Positions 1 through 15,792 of a stretch of 64,000 nucleotides of DNA are shown in pieces. The stretch is from Mucilaginibacter sp. OK268 (GTDB lineage: Bacteria > Bacteroidota > Bacteroidia > Sphingobacteriales > Sphingobacteriaceae). Every line of letters begins with the position of its first letter. The stretch's first letter is position 1. Under the pieces are notes generated by a model, which did not search any database, was not told the origin of the DNA, and saw nothing but the letters and a program-made list of their open reading frames with translations. The position numbers and the translations under genes were made by a program. The stretch covers positions 62,001-126,000 of the forward strand of contig NZ_FNJV01000003.1 of the NCBI RefSeq assembly GCF_900103125.1. The letters are read 5' to 3'.

Positions 1-1692
1 GGCAAGCAATTTGATCTTATATACATCAATGTACTTTTCATCACCATATTTTTCTTCCAGATTTATTTTAATCTCCTTTTTTCCATCTTTATAAGTAGCT
101 TCTGTTGAGTTACTTGAACTGGAAGATGGTGCATCCTTACCTACGGCTATCATCTCTATTTGAGGTATAGCTTTTAGTTTGTTCATAAACACCTGGTTGC
201 GACTGGCCGTACGGTTTTTCCAGGGAGAATTAATAACTATAATAGCATCCTTTTTAAAACCCAGATCCTTATGCAGCGCATAATATATTTGCTTGCTCAC
301 CAATACTGTTGCCATTATAAAAAACTGGGCTATCACAAACTGTAAAACTGTTAATGATTTACGCAGCACCGCGTTACGTGTTTTATTGCTATTGGCAGCG
401 GTTTGGTTTTTAAGTACCAATGCGGGTTTGTATGACGATAATAAGACAGCTGGATAAAAGCCTGATAAAATGCTTACCACAATTGTTAATATGAACAGAA
501 AAATTATCAGATCAGGATGCCCCAAAATATCTACTTTAATACCCTGCGGAATAAAATCAGCAAACAATTTGAGTATAACAGGAGCCATCGCTACAGATAC
601 AATTACGGCAATTAAAGTTATCAAAAACGTTTCGCTCAGAAACTGAATAATGAGTTGCACGCGGCTACTGCCCATTGTTTTGCGGATACCTATTTCTTTG
701 GCCCTTTGGGTAGCCTGTGCGGTAGTTAAATTCACAAAGTTGATACAACCTAGTAATAATAGAAACAAAGCAATTACCAGCAAACCATACAAGGTTATTT
801 TATTGGCAGTATGACTGGTACCTGTATCAAACGTTCCATAAGTTCCGTTAAAATGCAGATCGCTTAATGGCTGCAACTTAAAATTCCTGGTGTTACCCTT
901 ATCTGATGGTTTAGGTGGATTGTTTTTCTTTAACAATTCATTTAACTGTTTCTCAATATGCGTAACAGTGGTATTGGGTGATAGCTTGATAAAAAGTTGA
1001 GAAGCAGATGTTGTACTACCCCATTGTGTCGGTCTTATTTCTTCCAGGAGCGCTTTATTCGAATTTATAGTACCATAGGATATGAAATCATGAAAAGTAA
1101 AGTCGTTATTACCTTTTAATGATTCCACAATACCACTAACAGTTGTGGTTAAAGTATCATAAGTAACCGTACGCCCCAGCATCTGGTTATAGGAAAGTGA
1201 AGGAAAGTATTTTTTAGCCTGATCTGTGGTCAATACCACCTGGTTAGGCGCGTTTAAGGCAGTCTTGGCAGAACCCACTTTCCAATTATAATTAAACAGA
1301 TTAAAATAATGACTATCTGCAATAACTACATTGTCCTGTATCTTGAATTTAACCGGAACACCCGATTTTATCGAAATGAGCACATTTGGCTGATTGAGCG
1401 TAAAAAATGGTACTGAAACAGCTACCCCACTCACGGATTTCATTGCCCCGGGCAAAGCACCTGTAACTCCCCTGTTATGAGCCTCTTCACCAGAGAATGT
1501 GTAATTTGAAACTATACGATATATCCTGTCACCATCTGTAAAGGATTGGTTAAAAGTAAAATCAAAATGTACAATCAAATAAATGACCAATGCAGAGCTT
1601 ATACCAATGGATAAGCCGATGATATTGATCATTGTAAACAATTTGTGCTTACTAAAATTGCGCAAAGCAATCTTGAAATAATTTTTGATCAT
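1..1692 (-). CDS. ABC transporter permease, MacB/FtsX type (C-terminus cut by window edge)
   Basis: This reading frame opens at an ATG (minus strand, 1692) and runs without a stop to base 1, giving 564 residues of a protein whose relatives here are about 800 long. The N-terminus begins MIKNYFKIALRNFSKHK, followed by a hydrophobic segment (about residues 20-43), a large extracytoplasmic MacB_PCD-like region and a first FtsX block containing the charged EIGIRKTMG-type loop after a membrane helix. It is the last visible member of four paralogous permeases and follows the 1760-4183 gene by 67 nt, so the two probably share a transcript. By family it should be the membrane part of a MacB-like mechanotransmission ABC complex that moves lipoproteins, peptides or drugs across the periplasm. 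The substrate is unknown. Confidence 0.9.
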   Translation of the reverse strand, partial: MIKNYFKIALRNFSKHKLFTMINIIGLSIGISSALVIYLIVHFDFTFNQSFTDGDRIYRIVSNYTFSGEEAHNRGVTGALPGAMKSVSGVAVSVPFFTLNQPNVLISIKSGVPVKFKIQDNVVIADSHYFNLFNYNWKVGSAKTALNAPNQVVLTTDQAKKYFPSLSYNQMLGRTVTYDTLTTTVSGIVESLKGNNDFTFHDFISYGTINSNKALLEEIRPTQWGSTTSASQLFIKLSPNTTVTHIEKQLNELLKKNNPPKPSDKGNTRNFKLQPLSDLHFNGTYGTFDTGTSHTANKITLYGLLVIALFLLLLGCINFVNLTTAQATQRAKEIGIRKTMGSSRVQLIIQFLSETFLITLIAVIVSVAMAPVILKLFADFIPQGIKVDILGHPDLIIFLFILTIVVSILSGFYPAVLLSSYKPALVLKNQTAANSNKTRNAVLRKSLTVLQFVIAQFFIMATVLVSKQIYYALHKDLGFKKDAIIVINSPWKNRTASRNQVFMNKLKAIPQIEMIAVGKDAPSSSSSNSTEATYKDGKKEIKINLEEKYGDEKYIDVYKIKLLA

Positions 1693-1759
1693 AATGATAT
1701 AATTTCTAAACTATAGTTTCTAAATCCTAAACAACCTTGAGCTTTCTGCATTTAGCTTC

Positions 1760-4183
1760 TTATTCGCTACGTAAACTTTTTACCGGGTTGGCCATTGCCG
1801 CTTTGATAGATTGAAAGCTAATGGTCACAAATGCGATCACCACTGCAATAACACCGGCCATTAAAAATACCCACCATTGTATACTGATACGGAAGGCGAA
1901 ATCAAGCAGCCATTTACTCATGGCATACCAGGCAATAGGTAACGCAATGACCGAAGCGATGAGTACCAGTTTTAAAAAATCTTTGGATAGCTCGGTTACA
2001 ATCTGAGGGATACTCGCGCCCAATACTTTGCGTACCCCGATCTCTTTAACTCGTTGGGTAATGGTGAAGGCCGATAAGCCAAACAATCCCAAACAAGCTA
2101 TAAATATAGCGATGAAAGAAAATATGGTGAATAAATTAGCCTGCTGTTGTTCGCTATAGTATAATCTCTGGAAACGTTCATCTAAAAATGTATACTCAAA
2201 TGGTTTTTCGGGTTGTAATTTCAACCAGGCTTCCTGAATGGTATTGATGGATGAACTGATATTATTCCCCGCAATTTTAATCGATAATCTTCCGTAATGA
2301 CCTTCACTGGCCATACGGAATAACAAAGGAATGATACTTTGATGCAACGACTCAAAATGAAAATCATTTACCACGCCGATCACCTTACCTTTTACCCCCC
2401 CATAGGCCAAATCTTTTCCAATGGCATTTTCGGGGGTTTTCCAGCCAAGTACTTTTACAGCAGCCGAATTGATCACATAATTATTACTGTCTGTACCAAA
2501 ATCCCGCGAAAAATTGCGCCCGGCAGCCATCTTCATACCAAAGGTGGGTATAAAGCCATAATCAGTATTTACATATTTAACATCCGCTTTAATCGGCTGG
2601 GATTTAGCCCCCTCAAAAACAGATATTCCCTGATCATCCAATAAACGGCCGGATGGGACTCTTGACGAGCGTCCTAATTCCTTGATATCAGCGTTTTTCA
2701 GCAGCTCATTTTTAAAGGCTTCAAACTGACTATTAGAAAATGGGTTATCCATCGTAATAACATGCTCTTTATCAAATCCAAGCGATTTTTGCTGTATATA
2801 TCTTAACTGCTGAAATACAATGGTTGTGGCCACTATTAATACAATAGAAACAGAGAATTGTACCACCACCAAAACTTTGCGGAATGATACACCTCCTGAA
2901 CTTACCTTTAATAACCCCTTCAATACCTTTACAGGTTTAAAGGATGACATGAATAATGCCGGATATATTCCGCTGAGAATACCCACAAAAAATGGCAGTA
3001 TAATTAGAGAGGCCAATAGTTTAGGCTCATACAAACCATGAATACTTAAGCCCAGATTCGAAAAACCATTTATAAATGGTATCATTAACCAGGTAAGTAC
3101 TAATGCCAGGATTAGTGCAAAAGCAGTGATCAATATTGATTCACTTAAAAACTGGGTGATTATTTCTTTCCGTTGTGCCCCTATCACTTTCCGGATACCA
3201 ATTTCACGCGCCCTTAAAGCTGACCGTGCAGTTGACAAATTCATGTAATTGATACAGGCTATCAACAGAATAAATAAGGCAATAGCCGAAAATATGTAGA
3301 CCCGTTTGATATCACCATTGGTTTCAATCTCCGCATCCAGATGGGAATGTAGATGTATGTCTAATAACTTCTGAATATGTAATTTGCTATTTTTTGATTC
3401 CTGGAAATTGCCTGGTTGTCCAGGGAAATGAACATACTTATTTAAAAAAGCAGGGAATAAGGATTCCATATGCTCCACATTGTAGTTTGGTGGTAAAAGC
3501 ATATAGGTGTAAAAATCATTATTACCCCAATTGGTGCGTAATTGTTTGTCGCCATATATTGTACTATCTTTTAAGGTAATAAAAGACAAAAGCATTTCAG
3601 GATGAAGATGTGAGTTAGCCGGGAACGGTTTATAAATGCCGGTAACTTTAAAATTGAACTGGTTATCCAGTCTGATCTCCTTATTTATCGGATCCTCATT
3701 GCCAAAATACTTACGGGCCATGTCTTCTGTCATCATCACTGTAAAAGGATCGGAAAGGGCTGTGGCCGGATCTCCCTTAATTGTTTTTACGGTAAAAACA
3801 TCCACAAAACTTTCATCAGCAAAGTAGGATTCTTTTTCATTAAGCAACTTCTCTTTGTATCGCATGGTAACCGTACCTGTTCCGCGTATCTGGGTTACTT
3901 TTTTTATATCAGAAAATTCATTTTTTAACAGGGGGCCAAATGGAGGGGCTATGGAACCCAGGAAAAGGGTTTGGGCACCATCTGTAGTATTAAAGCTCCT
4001 GGTTACCCGGTAAACATTATCTGCGTTGGTGTTAAACTTATCATAACTCAGCTCATTTAAAATATATATGAGGATAAGCATACAGCAGGTTAAGCCGATG
4101 GTTAAACCAAAAATATTGATAAACGAGATAAATTTATGTCTTGTGATATTGCGTATAGCGCTCCGTAAATAATTCTTTAACAT
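1760..4183 (-). CDS. ABC transporter permease, double-FtsX MacB-like, 807 aa
   Basis: The protein has one N-terminal membrane helix (about 18-43), a periplasmic MacB_PCD-like domain (to about 290), a first FtsX block with helices between about 297 and 460, a second periplasmic domain, and a C-terminal FtsX block (about 685-807). The cytoplasmic loops REIGIRKVIGA and KEIGVRKVLGA after each block are the ATPase-coupling signatures of this family. It carries no ATPase domain, so it must borrow one, probably the protein at 10623-11300. A terminator and a putative activator site precede it, so it likely starts a second transcription unit with the partial permease downstream. Substrate cannot be told from sequence. 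Confidence 0.93.
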   Translation of the reverse strand: MLKNYLRSAIRNITRHKFISFINIFGLTIGLTCCMLILIYILNELSYDKFNTNADNVYRVTRSFNTTDGAQTLFLGSIAPPFGPLLKNEFSDIKKVTQIRGTGTVTMRYKEKLLNEKESYFADESFVDVFTVKTIKGDPATALSDPFTVMMTEDMARKYFGNEDPINKEIRLDNQFNFKVTGIYKPFPANSHLHPEMLLSFITLKDSTIYGDKQLRTNWGNNDFYTYMLLPPNYNVEHMESLFPAFLNKYVHFPGQPGNFQESKNSKLHIQKLLDIHLHSHLDAEIETNGDIKRVYIFSAIALFILLIACINYMNLSTARSALRAREIGIRKVIGAQRKEIITQFLSESILITAFALILALVLTWLMIPFINGFSNLGLSIHGLYEPKLLASLIILPFFVGILSGIYPALFMSSFKPVKVLKGLLKVSSGGVSFRKVLVVVQFSVSIVLIVATTIVFQQLRYIQQKSLGFDKEHVITMDNPFSNSQFEAFKNELLKNADIKELGRSSRVPSGRLLDDQGISVFEGAKSQPIKADVKYVNTDYGFIPTFGMKMAAGRNFSRDFGTDSNNYVINSAAVKVLGWKTPENAIGKDLAYGGVKGKVIGVVNDFHFESLHQSIIPLLFRMASEGHYGRLSIKIAGNNISSSINTIQEAWLKLQPEKPFEYTFLDERFQRLYYSEQQQANLFTIFSFIAIFIACLGLFGLSAFTITQRVKEIGVRKVLGASIPQIVTELSKDFLKLVLIASVIALPIAWYAMSKWLLDFAFRISIQWWVFLMAGVIAVVIAFVTISFQSIKAAMANPVKSLRSE

Positions 4184-4246
4184 ACCTGTAAATATTAAAT
4201 TCTAAAACCTGATATCCCCATCCCAACTACTCCTGCTTATTGAAGG

Positions 4247-4261
4247 TTAAAATACGTACCA
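4247..4261 (-). promoter_or_regulatory. Candidate -24-like promoter box for the 4183 permease
   Basis: Read on the minus strand this is TTGGTACGTATTTTAA. The TTGGTACG part resembles the -24 half of a sigma-54 promoter (consensus TGGCACG). The expected GC of the -12 half is AA here, so it is not a canonical sigma-54 promoter. Its GG lies 76 bp from the 19-nt site at 4336, exactly as in the copy upstream of 12671. It is about 76 nt before the start codon. Confidence 0.35.
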
Positions 4262-4335
4262 ATTATATAAAATACTAACAAACAGTCGATTATATACAAA
4301 TTAATATTTAAACTGTTCGCAGGCGTAACACATGG

Positions 4336-4354
4336 TGTCCGGTTATGATACAGT
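4336..4354 (-). promoter_or_regulatory. Putative upstream activator site, copy 1
   Basis: The plus-strand sequence TGTCCGGTTATGATACAGT is identical to 12791-12809. Its ends form a short dyad, TGT-N11-ACA. It lies between the terminator of the DUF4097 gene and the start of the 4183 permease, where an enhancer for a new transcription unit would be expected. Inference: it is a binding site of the NtrC-family regulator encoded at 13098. Confidence 0.5.
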
Positions 4355-4365
4355 AAAAAACAAAG

Positions 4366-4397
4366 AAAGCCTGTCAGAAATTAATCCAACAGGCTTT
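4366..4397 (-). terminator. Hairpin terminator after the DUF4097 gene
   Basis: AAAGCCTGT at 4366-4374 pairs perfectly with ACAGGCTTT at 4389-4397 across a 14-nt loop. It lies 20 nt past the stop of the DUF4097 gene. The minus-strand 3' side continues CTTTGTTTTTT, a T-rich tail. It should separate the upstream ABC unit from the permeases at 1-4183. Confidence 0.7.
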
Positions 4398-4416
4398 TTA
4401 TATGATTAATAGTTAA

Positions 4417-5451
4417 TTAGTTCACATTCAGATTGACGCGGCCATTTCCTCTCACCTCAACCAACGAACCGCCGCCATTCAATTTGCCTTTTACCCTTTC
4501 TTTTTCTTTAGTCCCATCAAAATTTCCTGTAAAATTGGTTTCTACCTTTTCACCCCGGAGATCCAAATCAACGCCCTGTTTTGATGGCAGATCCAGGTCA
4601 ATATGCCCGGAGCTCACATCTATCTTAACATACTTACCCACACTGTTAAACTGCGCGTGAAAACTTCCCGAACTGGTTGACGCATCAAGTGCGCATGACA
4701 ATTGGGTGAGGTTAATGCTACCACCGCTGGTACTGGTTATCAGTTCACCATTAATGCTGTTACCACGAATACTGCCTCCACTTGTAGTAGCATCGATGTT
4801 GCCTTGCAGCCCTTCCAGTTGCAATGAACCTCCGGATGTTTCCAACCTGATGTGTCCAATACAATTAGCCGCGCTGATACTTCCGCCACTGGTCTGCAAA
4901 TCAATATCCTGACCTGAATTACTAACGTGGATACTGCCACCTGATGTTCTGCCATGTATGGTGCCGGTTAACCTGTCCATATGCAGGCTCCCTCCACTGG
5001 TCTCAAAGGTTTGCTTACCGGTTAAATTATCCAAACTAATACTACCTCCGCTGGTATTCAGATCTGTGGTTACCTGTTTAGGCACAAAAACTCTGAATGA
5101 GATGTTCAGGGAGTTGTTCCAGTTAAAGAAACCTTTACTTTTGCCTTTCGCAATAGCTTGTACTTCGCCATTATTAACGGTTACCTCCAGTGTGTAATTC
5201 TCCAAACGCTTTTTTATTTCATCGTTCGAGATATCATTGTTACCATTATTACCGCTGATATAAACCTCAACCCGGGGCTCCCCAACACCCGCGCCGGTAA
5301 CACCAATACTACCGCCGGATGTTTTAACTACAACCGATCTGATAGCAGATCCTGTTAGCGATTTAGTCATATAAGGGGTTTGCCCGTTACGCTGGGCAAA
5401 GGCTACACAGCTTTGACCGGCGACAAATAACAACAGTAAATATTTTTTCAT
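4417..5451 (-). CDS. Secreted DUF4097 beta-solenoid protein, 344 aa
   Basis: A signal peptide (about residues 1-19, ending AFAQ) precedes a protein built from about ten short units, each beginning with T-S-G-G-S and a hydrophobic residue at intervals of roughly 19-25 residues (for example KTSGGSI, NTSGGSI, ETSGGSL, QTSGGSI). The last two units degenerate to TSSGSF and VSSGHI. The pattern matches the DUF4097 / putative adhesin family, which forms a right-handed beta-helix. It sits between permeases of the ABC cluster and is probably expressed with them, ending in its own hairpin terminator. Its role is unknown. An envelope-surface or periplasmic partner of the transporter is a guess from context. 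Confidence 0.88.
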   Translation of the reverse strand: MKKYLLLLFVAGQSCVAFAQRNGQTPYMTKSLTGSAIRSVVVKTSGGSIGVTGAGVGEPRVEVYISGNNGNNDISNDEIKKRLENYTLEVTVNNGEVQAIAKGKSKGFFNWNNSLNISFRVFVPKQVTTDLNTSGGSISLDNLTGKQTFETSGGSLHMDRLTGTIHGRTSGGSIHVSNSGQDIDLQTSGGSISAANCIGHIRLETSGGSLQLEGLQGNIDATTSGGSIRGNSINGELITSTSGGSINLTQLSCALDASTSSGSFHAQFNSVGKYVKIDVSSGHIDLDLPSKQGVDLDLRGEKVETNFTGNFDGTKEKERVKGKLNGGGSLVEVRGNGRVNLNVN

Positions 5452-5559
5452 GATTTTTTGTTTGGTTCATCTATAAGACCCACTTCAATACATCTTGGTT
5501 GCATCGTATTGGAAATATATCTGGATCTGACCGTAATACAATTCAAAATATGTTTACCC

Positions 5560-7920
5560 CTACTCGCTTCTTAAACTTTTTATCGGGTTGGTAAGAGCTG
5601 CCTTTATAGATTGAAAACTAACCGTTGCCAAGGCAATGATCATGGTTAACAAGCCTGCTGCTATAAATACCCAAACCTGAATATGAATACGGTACGTGTA
5701 GTTTTGTAACCAAACATGCATACCATACCATGCTATGGGCGACGCTATCAAAAATGATATAAGTACCAGCATTAAAAAGTCTTTGGATAATAAAGTAGTC
5801 AGGTTAGAGACCGACGCACCTAATACTTTGCGCACACTGATCTCTTTTTGACGATTTTGAGCCATGTAAGCCGCTAAGCCAAATAAACCCAGGCATGATA
5901 TAAATATGGTTAAACCAGCAAACAAGCTTGCCAGTGTGCTGGTACGCTTTTCATCGTTAAATTTCCGGGCATACTCATCATCAGCAAAATGGTACTCATA
6001 CGGATATTCTGAGTTATACTTTTTAAATACCCCTTCGGCCCGTTTCAGGTTCTCCGCAGTAGTATTAGCCGGATTCAATTTATAGTGCACTACATTAAAC
6101 CATGATTTTGGGCCCTGTACAATCATCGGGCGAACAGGTTCATATGGTGATTCAATGATAAAATTCTTGATCACACCTATAACATGCCAGGCACGACTAT
6201 CGCCATTTTTGATGATCTGGCCTATAGGGTTATTAAAACCCATAACCTTAACTGCAGCTTCATTTAGCAACATAGCAGTTGAATCTGTTGGATAAGCGTT
6301 AACATCCACATCGCGACCGGCAATTACTTTTAGCCCCATTGTTTTAACAAAGTCGCCATCGGTATTATAAGTGATAAAATCAATTTTCTGACTTTGATCC
6401 TTTCCTTTCCAATCATAACCCCAGCTATCGCTCCAACGTTGAGTGATTGGCGAGCTGGTTTTGGTTACAGACGTTGCCGCTCCGCTACTGATCAACTCGC
6501 TTCTGATCATTTTATAATTCTTTTCTATACTACCCATCATCATGGTATAAACCAGGTTATCTTTTTTATAACCCAACTCACGATCTTGCGCATACTGCAT
6601 TTGGTTGCGGACAATAATTGTACAAATGATGAGTACAATGGCGAAGGTAAACTGTAGAACCACCAGTAACTTACGCGGCGTAACCAAAGCATTTGCCGCC
6701 TTGAATGTGCCCTTTAATACGCTTACCGGCTTAAATGATGATAAATAAAAGGCAGGATAACTGCCGGCTATAACACCGGTTAATAATATAAATATCAGGC
6801 AGATAAGCCAGAATCCAACATTGCCAAATGGTATAAACAGCTGTTTATCTGTCAATTGATTAAAGCCCGAAAGACTAATTTGTACTATAATCAGCGCGAC
6901 TGTACCGGCAATCAGGGCCAGTAATATAGATTCGCCAAGAAACTGACCTATAAGCGAACCTTTTTGAGCGCCCACTACTTTGCGAATGCCTACTTCCCGT
7001 GCGCGCCGTTCACTTCGGGCTGTACTCAGGTTCATGAAGTTGATACAGGCAATGAGCAAAATAAACATAGCTATCACCCCAAACAACTTTACGGTGTTGA
7101 TACGGCCACCCACTATTTTGCCGTTTTCAAACTCCGAATACAAACGCCATTTGCTGGCAGGGTGCATAAAAACGTCACCATCTTTTTGGTCGGAGTGCGA
7201 TCTGGTTATATTTTGCACCTGTTTATTTAAGGAGGCTTCAGAAACATTGGGTTTGGCCAGCACCCAGGTTTGTACCGAGTTATTACCCCAGTTTTTTTCA
7301 TCCTCGTGCTCTGTTTTTATCAAATAACTCCAGGGTATCAGGTATTCAAAGTTAAATCGCGTATTATTAGGTAATGCCTTCAAAACCCCCGTAACGGTAA
7401 AATTGTCAACACTATCAATCCGGACAACTTTTCCCATCGCATCATCGTTACCAAACAGCTTTTTGGAAAGTTGTTCGGTGATCACAATAGAGCTTACAGT
7501 ATTGAGCGCTGTTTTGGAATTACCCTTCAGCAGAGGAAAACTAAACATTGTCAGGAATCCAGGATCGCTAAAATAACCAGGAACGTTCAGGTGTTTATCG
7601 CCAACAGTAAATAAAAAATTAGCCGATGTAGATCTTGTAACATCCTCTACTCCTGGATATTCCTGCTTTAAAGTTTTAGCCATTACTTTTGGTGTAGTAG
7701 ACCAACACCAGAGTTTGCCATCAAAAACAGCCCTGTTATAAGCCAGATACAAGCGCGACTTATTGGTATGAAACTGGTCGTAACTCACTTCGTTCTGGAT
7801 CCAGAATAAAATAAGTGCGGCACTGGCCATACCGATGGCCAATCCTGCTATGTTTATCAGCGAAAATGATTTATGTCGCAATAAATTTCGCCAGGCTATT
7901 TTTATAAAGTTTTTGATCAT
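5560..7920 (-). CDS. ABC transporter permease, double-FtsX MacB-like, 786 aa
   Basis: The layout is that of the cluster's other permeases: helix at about 18-40, periplasmic PCD domain, FtsX block 1 (about 280-440, loop REVGIRKVVGA), second periplasmic domain, FtsX block 2 (about 665-786, loop KEISVRKVLGA). The C-terminus TNPIKSLRSE matches its paralogues. It follows the 7976 permease by 55 nt and probably shares its transcript. No ATPase domain is present. It is a clear but diverged paralogue, so the four copies look like old duplications rather than a recent tandem array. Confidence 0.93.
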   Translation of the reverse strand: MIKNFIKIAWRNLLRHKSFSLINIAGLAIGMASAALILFWIQNEVSYDQFHTNKSRLYLAYNRAVFDGKLWCWSTTPKVMAKTLKQEYPGVEDVTRSTSANFLFTVGDKHLNVPGYFSDPGFLTMFSFPLLKGNSKTALNTVSSIVITEQLSKKLFGNDDAMGKVVRIDSVDNFTVTGVLKALPNNTRFNFEYLIPWSYLIKTEHEDEKNWGNNSVQTWVLAKPNVSEASLNKQVQNITRSHSDQKDGDVFMHPASKWRLYSEFENGKIVGGRINTVKLFGVIAMFILLIACINFMNLSTARSERRAREVGIRKVVGAQKGSLIGQFLGESILLALIAGTVALIIVQISLSGFNQLTDKQLFIPFGNVGFWLICLIFILLTGVIAGSYPAFYLSSFKPVSVLKGTFKAANALVTPRKLLVVLQFTFAIVLIICTIIVRNQMQYAQDRELGYKKDNLVYTMMMGSIEKNYKMIRSELISSGAATSVTKTSSPITQRWSDSWGYDWKGKDQSQKIDFITYNTDGDFVKTMGLKVIAGRDVDVNAYPTDSTAMLLNEAAVKVMGFNNPIGQIIKNGDSRAWHVIGVIKNFIIESPYEPVRPMIVQGPKSWFNVVHYKLNPANTTAENLKRAEGVFKKYNSEYPYEYHFADDEYARKFNDEKRTSTLASLFAGLTIFISCLGLFGLAAYMAQNRQKEISVRKVLGASVSNLTTLLSKDFLMLVLISFLIASPIAWYGMHVWLQNYTYRIHIQVWVFIAAGLLTMIIALATVSFQSIKAALTNPIKSLRSE

Positions 7921-7975
7921 AATAATTGAAATTCTAATTTCTAAATTCTAAATCGCTTTCTGCTTTCAACACCCC

Positions 7976-10405
7976 TTACTCAGTCTTTAAACTCTCAACC
8001 GGATTGGCAATTGCAGCCTTGATCGATTGAAAACTTATGGTGATAACAGCGATAAACAGAGCGGCCAAACCAGCCAGCACCAAAACCCACCACTGGATAT
8101 TTATCCGGTAAGCAAAACCTTGCAGAAACCATTTATTCATAAAGTACCAGGCCAATGGTGTGGCAATCAAAATAGAAATGAATACCAGCTTAATAAAGTC
8201 TTTAGATAGCATGCCCGCAATAGCCGACACACTGGCACCCAATACCTTGCGTATGCCTATTTCTTTGGTGCGCTGCTCGGCAGCGTAGGCAGCCAGGCCA
8301 AATAAACCCAAGCAGGCAATGAGAATGGCCAGCGAGGTAAATACAATAAATATCTGGCCTGTACGCTGTTCTGTGCGGTAAGAAGCATCAAACTCCTGAT
8401 CCATAAATGAGTAATCGATCTGTACATTGGGAGATAATTCCTTCCATTTATTTTTTATTTGAGATAACAAGGCTGGCAGATTTTTAGTATCAACCCTGAT
8501 ACTTAAAGCACCTGTATTTTCGGCAAGTGTCATCACCACCGGACCTATACTTTCGCGCAGGGAATTAAAATTAAAATCTTTCACAATCCCTACTACGTGG
8601 TATTTCTTTACATTATCCAGCGTATTTTTGCCTCCCTGGCTTTTATACAGGATTTTATTGACATCATTAAATCCCAGGAACCTGGCGGCCGATTCATTGA
8701 GTATAATACCAGCGGAATCTGTGGGCATATCTTTGGAGAAGCTGCGCCCTGCCACCATCTTCATGCCAAGTGTTTTTACATAATCCTCATCAATTTCCCA
8801 GCTTTGGGGAAACAGAGATTTTTTTTGATCAAGGGTGGCATCTTTATAGTAGATGGCTGTGCTTTTCCAATTGGAAGTAGGGAGGAAACCCGTCATGGTG
8901 GCATTGATAACACCCGGAATTTCTTTCACCTCTTGTTTAAATATTTTAGCCTGTTTGTTAAGCTCAAAAACATTTTGAACAATGAGTACCTGGTTACGGT
9001 TATAACCTAAATTTTTTGTCTGGATGTAATTTAACTGATTATATATCACCAATGTACCAATGATCAGGAAAATAGATATGGAGAATTGAAAAACCACCAG
9101 GAAACTCCTGAGCCTGCTGCCTTTAAACCCGGTAGCTAATTTGCCTTTTAAAACATCAACCGGTTGAAAAGCCGACAGGTAAAAAGCCGGATATGAACCC
9201 GCTATTGCACCAACAAATAAGGATATGAATAATAATGCCGGAACTATCCATACTAACGACTGGCGGTTAATCTCCAGTTCTTTACCGGATAGCTGGTTGA
9301 ACAACGGCAATAGAAACAAGGCTGTTATAAAGGCCAGTAAAGTAGCCACAAACGTAACCAATACAGATTCGGTTAAAAACTGGGCTATCAGCTGCTTGCG
9401 GTCGGAGCCTAAAACTTTACGCACCCCAACCTCACGCGCACGGTTTGACGAACGCGCAGTGGAAAGGTTCATAAAGTTTACACAGGCTATTAAAAGAATA
9501 AAAATGGCTATCGCCGAAAATATATAAATGTACTGTGTAGTACCATTAGGGCCTAACTCGCCGCTCAAACTCGATTTTAAGTGAATGTCCGTTAGCGGGA
9601 TCAGGTTCATCCTGAAAAAGCTGCCACTTTTTTCAAAGGCATCAATGCTCATGTTTAACTGAGCCTGCATTTGCGCACCGCTGAATTTTTTTAACAGTTC
9701 CGGAAAGCTGGCTTCCAGTTTTTTGGCGTCAGAGGGGGCTTTTAATAAAACATAGGTATTATAATCACTCCTTAACCATTCATTGGAACGGCTATCAGGC
9801 CAGGTAGGCATCGACAGGAAGAAATCAAAATTGAAATGTGACTGCTTAGGCACATCACGAATAACACCGGTTACTTTAAATGGCGTATTATCATTTAACA
9901 CCAGTGTTTTGCCAACAACATTAATGCTGTTGAAATATTTTTTGGCTGCAGTTTCGGTAATTACAACGCTATTAGGTTCGGCAAGGGCTGATGACGGGTT
10001 CCCGCTGATCATTGGTAAGGTAAAAACATCAAACAGCGAAGGATCGGCATAAACTACCCGGTTCTCGAGTATATTGGAATTGCCTTTTTTAACGTGCCAG
10101 CTACCGGCATTTTTTAGGCGGACAGCATTTTCAACGTAAGGATACTCTGCTTTTAAGGTTTTGGCCAGGGGCGGCATACATACAGCATACTGTACGCTGT
10201 TATCGCCCAGTTTAAGATCCTCATTTACCCGGTATATCCTGCTGGATTTGGTATTATACCGGTCATAGCTTAATTCATCAATTACGTACAGTACAATGAG
10301 CAGGCAGGTTGCCAGCCCCAAAGCCAGTCCCAGGATATTGATGGCGGTAAACCCTTTGTTTTTTTGAAGACCGCGGAAAGCTGTTTTTATATAATTCTTG
10401 ATCAT
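7976..10405 (-). CDS. ABC transporter permease, double-FtsX MacB-like, 809 aa
   Basis: It has an N-terminal helix (about 18-42), a PCD-like domain, a first FtsX block (about 295-460, loop REVGVRKVLGS), a second extracytoplasmic domain and a second FtsX block (about 690-809, loop KEIGIRKVLGA). It is the permease nearest the ATPase gene, 217 nt downstream of it, and is the most likely obligate partner. The intervening 217 nt hold an imperfect hairpin (CCCCTCCTGATAAGGAGAGG region, about 10542-10566) and no gene. Family knowledge points to a MacB/LolCDE-like complex, but the substrate is unknown. Confidence 0.93.
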   Translation of the reverse strand: MIKNYIKTAFRGLQKNKGFTAINILGLALGLATCLLIVLYVIDELSYDRYNTKSSRIYRVNEDLKLGDNSVQYAVCMPPLAKTLKAEYPYVENAVRLKNAGSWHVKKGNSNILENRVVYADPSLFDVFTLPMISGNPSSALAEPNSVVITETAAKKYFNSINVVGKTLVLNDNTPFKVTGVIRDVPKQSHFNFDFFLSMPTWPDSRSNEWLRSDYNTYVLLKAPSDAKKLEASFPELLKKFSGAQMQAQLNMSIDAFEKSGSFFRMNLIPLTDIHLKSSLSGELGPNGTTQYIYIFSAIAIFILLIACVNFMNLSTARSSNRAREVGVRKVLGSDRKQLIAQFLTESVLVTFVATLLAFITALFLLPLFNQLSGKELEINRQSLVWIVPALLFISLFVGAIAGSYPAFYLSAFQPVDVLKGKLATGFKGSRLRSFLVVFQFSISIFLIIGTLVIYNQLNYIQTKNLGYNRNQVLIVQNVFELNKQAKIFKQEVKEIPGVINATMTGFLPTSNWKSTAIYYKDATLDQKKSLFPQSWEIDEDYVKTLGMKMVAGRSFSKDMPTDSAGIILNESAARFLGFNDVNKILYKSQGGKNTLDNVKKYHVVGIVKDFNFNSLRESIGPVVMTLAENTGALSIRVDTKNLPALLSQIKNKWKELSPNVQIDYSFMDQEFDASYRTEQRTGQIFIVFTSLAILIACLGLFGLAAYAAEQRTKEIGIRKVLGASVSAIAGMLSKDFIKLVFISILIATPLAWYFMNKWFLQGFAYRINIQWWVLVLAGLAALFIAVITISFQSIKAAIANPVESLKTE

Positions 10406-10622
10406 TTACGTAAGCGTTAAATATTTGATATTATAAAACACCATTTCCCTTTCTTTAAAACCGGCTGTTTATCCCACGTTTCTTTAAACTTAAAGGATAT
10501 TGAACTATCCCCCCAGTAGCAAAAAGTAAAAAACTCAAGCTAACCCCTCCTGATAAGGAGAGGATAGCGAGGCACTTACTAACTTATTATAAACTATTTT
10601 CTTTTGGGAAGAGGCTTTTGGC

Positions 10623-11300
10623 TTAAACCATAATATTCTCCATTACGCTCTGACCATCCAACAAGCGGATGATACGATGACTATAACGGGCATCGTGTTC
10701 AGAGTGCGTAACCATGATAATGGTGGTGCCTTGTTCGTTCAGGTCGGTTAGCAGTTCCATAACATCGTTACCGTTGCTGCTGTCCAGGTTACCAGTGGGC
10801 TCATCCGCCAGTATCAGTTTGGGTTTGTTAACTACCGCACGGGCAATGGCCACACGCTGTTGCTGACCACCTGATAACTGTTGCGGATAGTGGTTACGAC
10901 GGTGCATGATCTGCATTTTATCCAATACCTCTTCTACCCTTTTTACCCTTTCGGCTGATGCTACGCCGGTGTATATCAAAGGTAATTCCACGTTTTCAAA
11001 TACGGTAAGCTCATCAATCAGGTTAAAGCTCTGGAATACGAAGCCAATGTTATGTTTACGCAGATCGGCACGTTTCCGCTCGGTAAAATGAGCTACCTCA
11101 ATATCATTAAAAACATAGCTACCTGCGTCCGGATCATCCAGCATCCCTAATATGTTAAGTAATGTTGATTTGCCACAACCAGATGGGCCCATGATGGCCA
11201 CAAATTCGCCGGTAGCAATTTCAATCGATAGCTTATTTAAAGCTATGGTCTCTACCTCTTCGGTACGGTAGAATTTTTCGAGATTAGTAATTTTTATCAT
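10623..11300 (-). CDS. ABC transporter ATP-binding protein, MacB/LolD type, 225 aa
   Basis: This is the ATPase that energises the neighbouring permeases. Numbered from the chosen start, Walker A GPSGCGKST is at 38-46, the ABC signature LSGGQ at 142-146, Walker B LILADE at 162-167 and the switch His at 199. Length and sequence fit the LolD/MacB/FtsE subfamily. The frame stays open to an ATG at 11327, but the start at 11300 (MIKITNLEKFY) aligns with family N-termini and has AGGAGG six nt upstream, which is unusual in Bacteroidota where Shine-Dalgarno sites are often weak. It is the only ATPase for four permeases in the window. Confidence 0.95.
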   Translation of the reverse strand: MIKITNLEKFYRTEEVETIALNKLSIEIATGEFVAIMGPSGCGKSTLLNILGMLDDPDAGSYVFNDIEVAHFTERKRADLRKHNIGFVFQSFNLIDELTVFENVELPLIYTGVASAERVKRVEEVLDKMQIMHRRNHYPQQLSGGQQQRVAIARAVVNKPKLILADEPTGNLDSSNGNDVMELLTDLNEQGTTIIMVTHSEHDARYSHRIIRLLDGQSVMENIMV

Positions 11301-11417
11301 TTGTGCCTCCTGGATCATCCCCGCCATGTGGCGGGTAGAATATTTTTTATGTTTCGTTAAGTTAATTAGTTTTATATATGATGTTTTATAGCTGCTTTTC
11401 GTTGCAGTTTTATCAAT

Positions 11418-12671
11418 TTATTTTTTCAATATCAGTTCCTGAATATCACCATAAGTTTCATAGCTTGAGGTAATTACCTTATCGCCCGGGTTCAAACCTT
11501 GATTCACTACATAATAATCAGGGCTCGTCAGTCCAAGTTGTATATCAACTTTATAAGCACGTTTACCATCCTCGCTTACTTTAAATATCCAGTTACCACC
11601 TGTTTGCTGGAAAAAACCACCTTTAGGAACCAATATCGCCGTTCTCTCTTCGCTCAACGCCAGTCTTACCTGCAGCGTTTGTCCTTTTCTGATACCTTTT
11701 GGCACCGCACCTACAAACTGCATATCAACCTGAAACCTGCCGGCAGTTACCTGCGTAAAAACTTTTTTGATCACCAGATTATAAGTTTTATCAGCAAACT
11801 GAAAGTCGCCTTTTAAACCGGTGTAGATACGTGACAGATAATGTTCGTCAATATCAACCCTTGCCTTAAATCCCGACTGAACATCTATCTGCCCGAGGTG
11901 CTCACCTTGTTTCTTATTTTGTCCAACTTCTGCATCCATTGAGGTTAACTGGCCATCAACATTCGCTCTCAAAACCAAACTGGCTACTTTTTTACGCATC
12001 AGCTCCAATGTGGTTTTCATGTGCGCATATTGTTCCTGTGATTGCGAAGCCTGTTGCTTAACCAGCGCCGTATCCTGTACTAATATTTGTCTGGCTAATT
12101 TATAACGGTTAACCTGATAGTCGTACATATTTTTATCAGATTGATATTGTTGTAAACCAATGGCTTTTTGATCATAAAGATGTTTGTCCAGCTTATACAC
12201 CCTTTCGGCCTCTTTATAAGCGTTCTCTACATCGGCCATGGTATTTAACTTGGTGATGGTATTTTGCTGCGCGTTGTTGTGCGATATCTGCATTTGGGTT
12301 TGCTCTGCGTATACAGCTGTTTCCTGGTTGGCCAGGTTTAGCTCCAGATCAGTATTGGACAGTTTTAAAATCGGGTCGCCTTTTTTGAGCGTAGCGCCAT
12401 CCTCAACAAATTTTTCTTCAACAACACCGCCTTCTGTCGCATCAAGATAAATAGTGGTCAGGGGCATTACTACGCCATTAACCGGGATAAATTCCTGGAA
12501 AGGGCCTTTGGTGATAGTGCTGATGGTTATACGTTCGGTATCAACATCCAGTTTACTTTTACCCGATGTAAAATAAATACTGCCGCCAACTAATAAAATA
12601 ATGCCTGTTATGCCCGCAATTGTTAGTATCCGTTTACTGTTCCAGGTCTTTTTTTCAATTTTTCTGTCCAC
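11418..12671 (-). CDS. HlyD/MacA-family periplasmic adaptor, 417 aa
   Basis: A short cytoplasmic N-terminus and one membrane helix (about 16-32) precede a biotinyl-lipoyl-like segment (about 70-110), a long coiled-coil hairpin rich in Q, A and K (about 110-235), the second lipoyl half and beta-barrel and membrane-proximal domains. This is the order of MacA/HlyD-type membrane fusion proteins, which link an inner-membrane ABC exporter to the outer membrane. It is the first gene of the minus-strand ABC unit, followed by the ATPase and permeases. The putative activator site at 12791 lies 120 nt before its start. No outer-membrane TolC partner is encoded in the window. Confidence 0.92.
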   Translation of the reverse strand: MDRKIEKKTWNSKRILTIAGITGIILLVGGSIYFTSGKSKLDVDTERITISTITKGPFQEFIPVNGVVMPLTTIYLDATEGGVVEEKFVEDGATLKKGDPILKLSNTDLELNLANQETAVYAEQTQMQISHNNAQQNTITKLNTMADVENAYKEAERVYKLDKHLYDQKAIGLQQYQSDKNMYDYQVNRYKLARQILVQDTALVKQQASQSQEQYAHMKTTLELMRKKVASLVLRANVDGQLTSMDAEVGQNKKQGEHLGQIDVQSGFKARVDIDEHYLSRIYTGLKGDFQFADKTYNLVIKKVFTQVTAGRFQVDMQFVGAVPKGIRKGQTLQVRLALSEERTAILVPKGGFFQQTGGNWIFKVSEDGKRAYKVDIQLGLTSPDYYVVNQGLNPGDKVITSSYETYGDIQELILKK

Positions 12672-12701
12672 TGTAGTTTATTATATTTTGAATAGTCATA
12701 A

Positions 12702-12716
12702 CAAAAAGATATGCCA
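12702..12716 (-). promoter_or_regulatory. Candidate -24-like promoter box for the ABC adaptor operon
   Basis: The minus strand reads TGGCATATCTTTTTG. TGGCA matches the -24 half of sigma-54 promoters, but the -12 GC is absent or displaced by one base. The GG (12714-12715) is 76 bp from the 19-nt site at 12791, the same as in copy 1. It lies about 31-45 nt before the adaptor start codon. Confidence 0.35.
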
Positions 12717-12790
12717 CAAATTAAATTACTGTATTTCAATACATTAAACTAAAAATAAGCAATTGAAGCGTACGCTTCTGTTACAGCAAG

Positions 12791-12809
12791 TGTCCGGTTA
12801 TGATACAGT
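12791..12809 (-). promoter_or_regulatory. Putative upstream activator site, copy 2
   Basis: TGTCCGGTTATGATACAGT is a perfect 19-nt match to 4336-4354. It lies 120 nt upstream of the adaptor gene, at a distance typical of enhancer-binding-protein sites, and in the intergenic region it shares with an NtrC-family regulator gene. Binding by that regulator is inferred. Confidence 0.5.
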
Positions 12810-13097: not shown

Positions 13098-14453
13098 ATG
13101 ATATTAAAAAAAGCTACTATTTTAATTGTTGACGATGACCCGGATGTGCTGACCGCCGTTAAGCTTTTACTGAAAACAGAAGCGCAGGAAGTGATCACCG
13201 AGAAAAACCCGGAGAATTTGAATTGGTTATTGCAGCGCAACGAGGTTGACCTGGTTTTGCTGGATATGAATTTTAATAGCGCTATTAATACCGGCAACGA
13301 GGGTTTATACTGGTTGCGTAAGGTTAAGGACTGGAAGCCCAACGTATGCGTGATCATGATAACCGCTTATGGCGATATTGATCTGGCGGTACGTTCTTTA
13401 AAAGAAGGCGCTAATGACTTTATTGTAAAGCCATGGCATAACGAAAAACTGATAGCCACCATAAAAGAGCTGTTGGATAAAAAGGAAGGTGTAAAAACTA
13501 CCAAAACGGCTGTTAAAAGCACGGCTGGCGATACCTCTATCCTGGGTGAATCGGAAGTGATGCAGGATATTTTTTACAAGGTGAATAAAATTGCCCCTAC
13601 CGATGCTAATATCCTGCTCCTGGGCGAAAACGGCACCGGTAAGGATTTGATGGCCAAAGCTATACATGAACGTTCACTACGTGCAGATAAACCATTTATT
13701 AAAGTGGATGTAGGCGCCCTTACCGATACTTTATTTGAGAGTGAGCTTTTTGGTCACAAAAAAGGTGCCTTTACCGATGCCCGCGAAGATCGTACCGGCA
13801 GGTTTGAAGATGCACAGGGCGGTACCCTGTTCCTGGATGAAATTGGTAATATTACCCTGCAGCAACAGGCCAAATTATTAGCCATACTGCAAAACCGGCA
13901 GGTAACCCGTTTGGGTACCAACAAAGCCGTTGATATCGATATCAGGTTGATTTGCGCTACCAACGTGCCTATGCATGAACTGGCCAATGAAAACCGTTTC
14001 CGTAAGGATTTAATATACCGGATCAATACCGTCGAGATCAATATGCCCCCCTTGCGCCGCCGCAATGAAGATATTTCCATACTGGCCAGGCACTTTGCCA
14101 AATTGTATGCCAGCAAGTACCTTAAACCAGCAATGGATTTTGATGCCGCGGCTTTACAAAAATTAAAATCATACAATTACCCCGGTAACGTACGCGAACT
14201 GCAATATACTATTGAAAGAGCGGTGATCATGGCCGATGAAAACATACTGCGCCCGGATGACCTGATATTTTCGATCCTGGAAACCGCGCCCGAAACCATT
14301 GCCGATGATGACAACATCCAATTAAGCACTTTGGAAAAGAACGCTATACTACGGGTTATTGAAAAACACAATGGTAATATAACACGGGCTGCTAAAGAAT
14401 TGGGATTAACCCGCACAGCCCTATACCGCAGACTAAGCAAATATGATATTTAA
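13098..14453 (+). CDS. NtrC-family sigma-54-activating response regulator, 451 aa
   Basis: Three domains are visible. The receiver (about 5-125) has acidic residues D12-D14, phospho-acceptor D56, T89 and K111. The AAA+ domain (about 150-385) has Walker A GENGTGKD at about 175-182 and the sigma-54-contacting GAFTDA loop at about 223-228. A Fis-type helix-turn-helix occupies about 415-451. The GAFTDA loop is intact, so the protein should activate sigma-54 RNA polymerase on phosphorylation. It overlaps the downstream kinase by 11 nt and is divergent from the ABC adaptor operon. Context suggests that it controls that operon through the repeated 19-nt sites. Confidence 0.96.
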   Translation: MILKKATILIVDDDPDVLTAVKLLLKTEAQEVITEKNPENLNWLLQRNEVDLVLLDMNFNSAINTGNEGLYWLRKVKDWKPNVCVIMITAYGDIDLAVRSLKEGANDFIVKPWHNEKLIATIKELLDKKEGVKTTKTAVKSTAGDTSILGESEVMQDIFYKVNKIAPTDANILLLGENGTGKDLMAKAIHERSLRADKPFIKVDVGALTDTLFESELFGHKKGAFTDAREDRTGRFEDAQGGTLFLDEIGNITLQQQAKLLAILQNRQVTRLGTNKAVDIDIRLICATNVPMHELANENRFRKDLIYRINTVEINMPPLRRRNEDISILARHFAKLYASKYLKPAMDFDAAALQKLKSYNYPGNVRELQYTIERAVIMADENILRPDDLIFSILETAPETIADDDNIQLSTLEKNAILRVIEKHNGNITRAAKELGLTRTALYRRLSKYDI

Positions 14454-15792
14454 CCGATATGAATGGCGGCTGTTGCTGCGTGTTTTCCTGATGTTTCTGG
14501 CCCTGGTTGCTGCAGCTTTTGTTATTGTTAGCGGCAAACCGCTATACCTCGTTATTTTTATCCCGCTCATCGTATACGCGGTTATCGAGATGATCCGTTT
14601 TCAGAAAAAAGCACAGGACGAGGTAAACCAGTTTGTGGAATCGATACATTACCGTGATTTTTCGAGACATTTTGACGTTCGTCGTGCACCCAATGAGCTA
14701 AAGCCATTACGTAAAGGTTTTAATGATATCAATACCACCTTTAAGCTCATCAGCCGTGAACGCGAAACACAATATCACTACTTGCAAAAGATATTGGAAC
14801 TGGTGGATACCGGCATCCTGTCGTTTGAGGAAGAAACCGGCAACATCAGCTGGATCAACGAGGCTTTTAAAAACCTCATCGGTATACCCTATCTCAAAAC
14901 CGTTCATTCGCTTGAAAAACGCGATCCGGCCTTGTACCATGAATTAACCATCGTAAAACCCGGCGACAGTAAGATCATCACCATCACGCGCAACCAGCAA
15001 CTGGTAAAAATGCTCATCACGGCCAGTGTTATGCGCAGCGATGATATCTTGTACAAGCTGATAGCCTTTCAGAACGTTAGTGAAGCCCTGGATGAAACCG
15101 AATCAAAGGCATGGTCGAAATTACTTAACGTAATGACCCATGAGATCATGAACTCGGTGGCGCCTATATCCTCATTGGCCGATACGTTGAAGAACCGGCT
15201 GCAAAGTCCCGAAATAACCGGGGCTATTCAAAGCAGCGAACTGGAAGACCTGGAGCTGGGTATCGATACCATCAAAAGGCGCAGCGAAGGTTTACTCAAA
15301 TTTACCGAAAGCTACCGTAGCCTCAACAAGATCACCAAGCTCGATCTGAATAAGATCCTGGTGCGCGACCTGTTTGAGAACCTGGCCAGCCTGATGCGCC
15401 CCACACTCGAGAAAAAGAACATCGAGCTTGAAATTATCCTGCGCGACCCTACCCTGGCCATACAGGCCGATATTAACCTGATTGAGCAAGTGATGATTAA
15501 CCTGTTGGTAAACGCCATTGAAGCGGTAAAAGACCGCGATGAGCCCCGCTTAATACTTTCAGGAGAGTTACAGAATAACAGTAAAACCCTGGTAAAGGTG
15601 ACCGATAATGGTTTAGGTATGCCACCTGAACTGCTCGATAAGATCTTTATCCCCTTCTTCAGTACCCGTAAAACGGGCAGCGGTATTGGACTCAGCCTGT
15701 GCAAACAGATCATGCTGCTGCATAAAGGTAATATACAGGTTCAATCAACTGAGGGCAAGGGATCCTCGTTTATTTTGCAGTTTATACCGTAA
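14443..15792 (+). CDS. Sensor histidine kinase, 449 aa
   Basis: Two membrane helices (about 10-30 and 33-50) bracket almost no periplasmic sequence, so the sensing site is likely in or near the membrane, or in the cytoplasmic PAS-like region (about 105-215). The phospho-acceptor lies in MTHEIMNSVAP (H233). The ATPase domain has the N box NLLVNAIEAV, the G1 box DNGLGMP (about 387) and the G2 box GSGIGLSLCKQ (about 411). It begins 11 nt inside the response regulator gene, so translation is probably coupled and the two form a cognate pair. An envelope-stress or lipid-packing signal would suit a kinase without a periplasmic domain, but this is inference. Confidence 0.95.
   Translation: MIFNRYEWRLLLRVFLMFLALVAAAFVIVSGKPLYLVIFIPLIVYAVIEMIRFQKKAQDEVNQFVESIHYRDFSRHFDVRRAPNELKPLRKGFNDINTTFKLISRERETQYHYLQKILELVDTGILSFEEETGNISWINEAFKNLIGIPYLKTVHSLEKRDPALYHELTIVKPGDSKIITITRNQQLVKMLITASVMRSDDILYKLIAFQNVSEALDETESKAWSKLLNVMTHEIMNSVAPISSLADTLKNRLQSPEITGAIQSSELEDLELGIDTIKRRSEGLLKFTESYRSLNKITKLDLNKILVRDLFENLASLMRPTLEKKNIELEIILRDPTLAIQADINLIEQVMINLLVNAIEAVKDRDEPRLILSGELQNNSKTLVKVTDNGLGMPPELLDKIFIPFFSTRKTGSGIGLSLCKQIMLLHKGNIQVQSTEGKGSSFILQFIP

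Follow-up and report, generated by a model that had tools for sequence, protein, structure and literature searches.

We analyzed a 64,000-nucleotide (nt) stretch of the Mucilaginibacter sp. OK268 genome (contig NZ_FNJV01000003.1, positions 62,001 to 126,000 of the forward strand; hereafter, the window), in which a cluster of MacB/FtsX-type ABC genes lies beside a gene for an NtrC-family response regulator, and we focused on a repeated upstream element, here termed the cassette, that heads the transcription units of this cluster. A preliminary description, made from the letters alone, had drawn attention to two identical 19-nt sites upstream of two of these units, each exactly 76 bp from a minus-strand GG resembling that of a sigma-54 −24 box. 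We re-found TGTCCGGTTATGATACAGT at 4336–4354 and 12791–12809, with no other match at ≤3 mismatches in the window (0.01 expected), and the GG pairs were read directly on the minus strand at 4260/4259 and 12715/12714, each 76 bp from its 19-mer. In minus-strand reading, i.e., in the direction of both transcription units, the two 19-mers are ACTGTATCATAACCGGACA, and they precede the minus-strand open reading frames (ORFs) starting at 4183 and 12671. Each is followed by a second, related 17-mer at an offset of 22 bp (4314–4330 and 12769–12785), and each represents half of a 39-bp enhancer made of two 17-bp imperfect palindromes, the centers of which are 22 bp apart. Alignment of the four copies present in the genome (see below) yielded the tandem consensus TGTATCATAACCGKACR, 5 bp, TGTWACNNNNNCGWACR, and then TGGYAY. 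The elements of the two window cassettes are as follows, where GG+n denotes the position n nt after the first G of the pair.

4336–4354, minus strand: enhancer site 1 of operon A; the 19-mer, with the 17-bp core TGTATCATAACCGGACA (minus-strand reading) at 4336–4352
4314–4330, minus strand: enhancer site 2 of operon A, TGTTACGCCTGCGAACA; offset by 22 bp from site 1
4265–4284, minus strand: AT-rich stretch of operon A, where relatives have a conserved IHF-like element; differs from the IHF consensus at 3 positions
4256–4261, minus strand: putative −24 box of operon A, TGGTAC, with GG at 4260/4259
4249–4251, minus strand: T-tract of operon A (GG+9 to GG+11) at the place expected for the −12 element, without GC
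12791–12809, minus strand: enhancer site 1 of operon B, with the 17-bp core at 12791–12807
12769–12785, minus strand: enhancer site 2 of operon B, TGTAACAGAAGCGTACG
12720–12739, minus strand: AT-rich stretch of operon B, where relatives have a conserved IHF-like element; differs from the IHF consensus at 3 positions
12711–12716, minus strand: putative −24 box of operon B, TGGCAT, with GG at 12715/12714
12704–12706, minus strand: T-tract of operon B, replacing the −12 element

Each of the four cassettes stands ahead of a run of same-strand genes in one cluster, and we take the four runs to be operons. One comprises an ATPase and a TolC-type protein, a second has five permeases, a third has three permeases and a GNAT-type protein (operon A), and the fourth has an HlyD protein, an ATPase, two permeases, and a DUF4097 protein (operon B). 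MacB_PCD and FtsX domains were detected in 10/10 permeases of the cluster. Over the whole region (G000 C11, ~43–75 kb, comprising window positions 1–12700 and sequence upstream), ten MacB/FtsX permeases are encoded versus two ATPases, one HlyD protein, and one TolC-type protein. The genes within the window are the following.

1760–4183, minus strand: MacB/FtsX permease, first gene of operon A; two permeases and the GNAT-type gene come next, outside the window
4417–5451, minus strand: DUF4097 protein, last gene of operon B
5560–7920, minus strand: MacB/FtsX permease
7976–10405, minus strand: MacB/FtsX permease
10623–11327, minus strand: ABC transporter ATPase
11418–12671, minus strand: HlyD-family membrane fusion protein, first gene of operon B
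13098–14453, plus strand: NtrC-family response regulator with receiver, Sigma54_activat (GAFTDA), and Fis-type helix-turn-helix (HTH) domains; proposed enhancer binder
14443–15792, plus strand: histidine kinase, adjoining the regulator

The regulator encoded at 13098–14453 carries the Pfam domains Response_reg, Sigma54_activat, and HTH_8 that characterize an NtrC-family sigma-54 activator, and it matches the NtrC-family chain 4l4u with an E value of 2.9e-81. The loop by which such activators are recognized, GAFTGA, is present as the variant GAFTDA, in agreement with the preliminary description, which had called it intact; among 80 orthologues (L127–L206), this position reads GAFTDA in 48 and GAYTDA in 32. 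The final 24 residues, which contain the recognition helix LTRTALYRRL, are identical in 61/66 named loci (L190–L203 left out). The closest named relatives of the regulator are from Mucilaginibacter, including a 99% identical protein in the soil species Mucilaginibacter lappiensis, with Chitinophagaceae (e.g., Flavisolibacter and Filimonas) among the more distant ones.

The preliminary description had proposed searching the genome for the site and tabulating distances. Using the 17-bp core, we located two further near copies, which lie 8 and 21 kb past the 4336 site, on this contig but outside the window; the two-site pattern (≤1 mismatch) has exactly four matches in the 7.2-Mb genome versus none for the reversed pattern. 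All four head units of the MacB/FtsX cluster, with the GG at positions 92, 92, 92, and 93 counted from the enhancer start. The single 17-mer is less discriminating: at ≤3 mismatches it has 41 genome matches versus 19 for the reversed pattern, of which four are the cassette sites; the others, including a 2-mismatch match on contig C13 (locus L034), are without a second half, and part of the excess over the reversed pattern is unexplained. Beyond this genome, the strict enhancer pattern occurs in 123/149 congeneric genomes and in 96/399 genomes (6/25 genera) of a family sample that includes many genomes of the same genus, and the combined enhancer and box pattern occurs in 10/395 class genomes (7 of its own genus; 4/196 genera), with zero matches for the controls in each case. 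The enhancer is also present in Chitinophagaceae. An enhancer matrix gave no match near six other activators of the genome, nor in 12 sister-regulator loci of relatives, and the motif is, as far as these comparisons reach, specific to this regulon. In some species, we also observed a second flavor of the enhancer away from the main cluster (L126 and L330, with matches in G024, G042, G048, and G056), in which the first half is mostly TGTATCG....CGNACA and the second is TGTAACG or TGTAACA with CCGAAC or TCGTAC; at L126, the box is at GG 91, and the gene behind it looks by eye like an FtsX permease gene. The regulon may extend past the main cluster.

The distance between enhancer and box is nearly invariant. 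Pooling all unique loci, 176/177 have TGGYAY, the −24 element of a sigma-54 promoter, with the GG at 90 (1 locus), 91 (21), 92 (99), 93 (25), or 94 (30) and no match for the reversed control. Among 77 fetched enhancer loci (the matches of the own-genome, genus, and family searches and, as listed, the first 40 of the remaining matches), the box is present in 76, at GG 91–94. Starting from the regulator rather than from the enhancer, the matrix detects the enhancer in 68/80 named regulator loci, and the box is present in 68/68 (reversed control, 0). With a relaxed pattern, 13/14 of the most distant named loci (L190–L203) were positive at GG 91–93, again without reversed matches; 5 of these 13 are already counted among the 68. 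No clear enhancer was found by matrix or relaxed pattern in 4/80 named loci (L130, L131, L182, and L190), of which L182 has an enhancer copy interrupted by N and a box at GG 92.

Enhancer and regulator also occur together across the genus. A regulator orthologue (best E ≤1e-170) is present in 128/149 genomes, and the strict enhancer was found in 117/128 of these versus 6/21 of the others (Fisher p 1.8e-9; the hand-tallied cross table is 117 both, 11 regulator only, 6 enhancer only, and 15 neither). Ten of the 11 regulator-only genomes were examined (G088 was left out, and two of the ten were reached via the named loci L187 and L188, matched by coordinates); nine contain diverged enhancers and one a first half-site (L302), with the box at the same spacing.

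We interpret the cassette as a sigma-54 enhancer-promoter for the regulator encoded at 13098, heading all four MacB/FtsX units, and give this reading a probability of roughly 85% on the basis of sequence comparison. The reported 19-mer would be the distal half of a two-site enhancer, on which two regulator dimers would sit side by side on the same face of the DNA, each at one of the 17-bp palindromes, with predicted centers at −109 and −87 relative to the putative start sites. The bound dimers would activate sigma-54 RNA polymerase sitting at the TGGYAY −24 box, perhaps assisted by a bending element immediately upstream of the box. Because one cassette type heads all four units, the kinase-regulator pair would turn on the whole pump set jointly. 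The promoter itself would be a weak-looking variant: it has lost the −12 GC, and what remains there, a T-tract or TTG, tends to be displaced by one base toward the −24 box relative to canonical sigma-54 promoters.

Several observations weigh against this interpretation. One locus, L113, has an intact enhancer and no TGGYAY box at the usual distance. In six genomes that have the enhancer, no orthologue of the regulator was detected (five of the six are in at least 170 contigs), as would be expected if the enhancer were bound by a regulator other than that at 13098. We consider such a binder very unlikely, given the adjacency and strong co-occurrence of the enhancer with the 13098 gene, the near-identity of the C-terminal helices wherever the site is conserved, and the presence of TGTCCG half-sites beside a related sister regulator. 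The proposed bending element is likewise uneven. Between enhancer and box lies a conserved YTGAWAATCAGNNNTTTWA-like stretch that ends ~5 nt before the box; at ≤1 mismatch, the IHF consensus matches 19/45 non-redundant sequences versus 3.2 expected from dinucleotide shuffles, and among the matches at ≤2 mismatches, 26 begin at GG−20 or GG−19. A similar stretch is seen by eye in the sister promoters. In the OK268 genome itself, the match is weak, with 2–3 mismatches at the conserved register in 4/4 promoters, and there is one PF00216 (HU/IHF-family) gene only; therefore, if this stretch is bound at all, its binder may be HU-like or may be the C-terminal domain of the polymerase alpha subunit.

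The remaining adverse observations concern the −12 element. The −12 GC and the ten-base spacer are regarded as the core of sigma-54 recognition and of the block that causes activator dependence. The preliminary description had noted that this GC is missing from both boxes, and we found its loss to be common to the regulon: GG-N10-GC, as expected of a sigma-54 promoter, occurs in 1/57 non-redundant promoters (below 70% identity) and in 1/176 unique promoters, GG-N9-GC occurs in 2/57, and in a set of 133 unique promoters GC is found at −13/−12 in none, nor one base nearer. What is retained instead is T, at 88% at GG+9 and in 57/57 promoters at GG+10, alongside variable columns at GG+5 to GG+8; TTG starts at GG+9 in 10 promoters, at the canonical GG+10 in 0, and at GG+11 in 5. 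This pattern bears on whether the spacing and the odd −12 are mere inheritance from one duplicated ancestral promoter, under no present functional constraint. Clusters of like genes do arise by duplication, and within one operon class promoters are similar across species, but the 57 diverged promoters keep the box and the invariant T while the neighboring columns vary, and the spacing is preserved even in the Chitinophagaceae loci, so we regard simple inheritance as unlikely.

For the sigma-54 interpretation, the extent of the departure can be gauged with a −12 matrix built from 29 Salmonella sigma-54 sites (PMC3844500 Table 3). The 57 promoters score below background in every register, with the best mean (−1.8 bits) at GG+9 and a mean of −4.8 bits in the canonical register, versus +7.2 at GG+10 for the sister regulon described below; the register in which an individual promoter scores highest is GG+9 in 22, GG+8 in 20, GG+10 in 7, and others in 8. 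We regard the loss of GC at −12 as clear and the shift by one base toward the −24 box as a tendency. In the Salmonella table, GC is present in 24/29 sites, and since the bound promoters listed in that paper include the single departures TTGT, TTGA, and TTTC, loss of the C alone has precedent; as these sites were found by a fixed-length matrix, a shorter spacer could not have shown among them (PMC3844500). Across the genus, the enhancer is followed by TGGYAY-N5-TTGC in 1/149 genomes; the single congeneric enhancer with a canonical box behind it (L332) has TGGTAT-N5-TTGCA. A canonical −12 form behind the enhancer is thereby possible, but rare. In 61 congeneric genomes as a whole, canonical TGGCACRNNNNTTGCA is not enriched (29 matches versus 40 for the reversed pattern), a null that says little, as many of the Salmonella sites (PMC3844500) would fail such a strict pattern too. 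A guessed alternative, TTGGCAYRNNNTTTGWAW, was dropped (11 matches versus 26 reversed).

The OK268 genome also encodes a sister regulator (G000 C11:676695, locus L281) that provides an internal comparison; it is 43% identical to the window regulator and adjoins an HlyD/ATPase/FtsX/OEP cluster (domains checked in the OK268 genome). GAFTDA was read in 13/13 sister loci, comprising L281 and 12 congeneric counterparts. In the sister promoters, the GG lies exactly 68 nt from a TGTCCG-type site in 13/13 loci, and TGGYAY-N5-TTGC is present at canonical spacing in 12/13, the exception being TTGT at L284 (the site pattern was written after inspecting these promoters and has no reversed control). As site 2 begins 70 nt ahead of the GG in both window promoters, the deviating box sits in the place of a canonical sigma-54 promoter. 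The genus thus keeps canonical-looking promoters from which the window class departs, and the −12 deviation belongs to the window regulon rather than to the genus at large. These data divide the proposal of the preliminary description: an NtrC-type enhancer with a sigma-54 −24 box finds strong comparative support in the fixed spacing, the regulator co-occurrence, and the canonical sister box, whereas a general tolerance of Bacteroidota sigma-54 for a missing −12 GC does not fit the sister promoters. The genome encodes one RpoN, with the ARRTVAKYRE box and STVSR helix intact, which presumably serves both regulons; the loop after the STVSR helix reads TEFG versus SPRG in the solved chain 8f1i, which we note as a lead only. 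Elsewhere, near 11246 of locus L280 and in the neighborhood of a different sigma-54 activator, a TGGCAT box lies 58 bp before a 91-aa groES-like ORF; PMC12316311 mentions that GroES is under sigma-54 control in Bacteroides.

The missing −12 element could also mean that the cassette contains a promoter for another sigma factor, e.g., the housekeeping one, with TGGYAY serving as a further contact for regulator or polymerase. Matches to TANNTTTG, the −7 element of the housekeeping sigma, occur at ≤1 mismatch in 18/57 promoters, of which 10 share a single register, versus 10.2 for mononucleotide-shuffled sequences. This enrichment is weak and pertains to the −7 element only, −33 not having been searched, and it stands against the GAFTDA loop of the regulator, the complete sigma-54 box at the equivalent place in the sister regulon, and TGGYAY itself, a hallmark of the sigma-54 −24 element that also appears in Table 3 of PMC3844500; on balance, a different sigma factor seems quite improbable. 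Retaining sigma-54, we tentatively suggest, as a possibility short of an expectation, that these promoters constitute a natural class, found in at least two Bacteroidota families, that is without the −12 GC and has a spacer one base short, and that the sigma-54 serving canonical promoters would also recognize through the −24 box, the rigid enhancer geometry, and the bending element. If so, the enhancer would help to define the promoter, beyond activating pre-bound polymerase.

Among known systems, the cassette resembles NtrC-type ones (glnA/NtrC, zraP/ZraR, and pspA/PspF): their activators likewise combine a Fis-type HTH with a sigma-54 AAA+ domain, palindromic sites precede a −24 box in both, and a bending element may be present between sites and box. 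It differs from them in its distance to the promoter, which is confined to a 5-bp range (GG 90–94) in 176/177 loci, and in its −12 region, which lacks the GC and retains a T-tract that tends to be shifted by one base toward the −24 box. Enteric glnH depends on NtrC and IHF. Its promoter (TGGCATGATTTTTTCATT in Salmonella; PMC3844500 Table 3) similarly combines a strong −24 box with a T-rich −12 lacking GC, but as given there it keeps the canonical spacing and the −12 C, and it is a single promoter rather than a conserved class. In the mainly open-access literature on sigma-54 in Bacteroidota, on this target family, and on spacing variants, we found no earlier account of the enhancer or its regulator, of the fixed geometry, or of the −12 deviation. 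For the same target family and phylum, sigma-54 control of COG0577 ABC permeases in Bacteroidia has been predicted with a promoter matrix, in work that calls itself the first evidence of such control for this family (PMC12316311); unlike the present analysis, the sections of that paper drawn on here describe no enhancer motif, regulator, enhancer spacing, or deviating −12 for these operons. Its authors state that non-canonical promoters challenge their method. Our results suggest that consensus-based promoter searches may miss efflux regulons such as this one in Bacteroidota. A further comparison is with the sister regulon, which has a 43% identical regulator, GAFTDA, an adjacent efflux cluster, and a fixed site-to-box distance, but a canonical promoter in 12/13 loci. 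With one sigma-54 and two related activators present in the same cells, the two regulons would then differ in just the −12 element and offer a controlled test of its role. Judged by its sequence, the window cassette would work like an NtrC enhancer with a sigma-54 promoter, yet that promoter departs from one of the features by which its class is defined.

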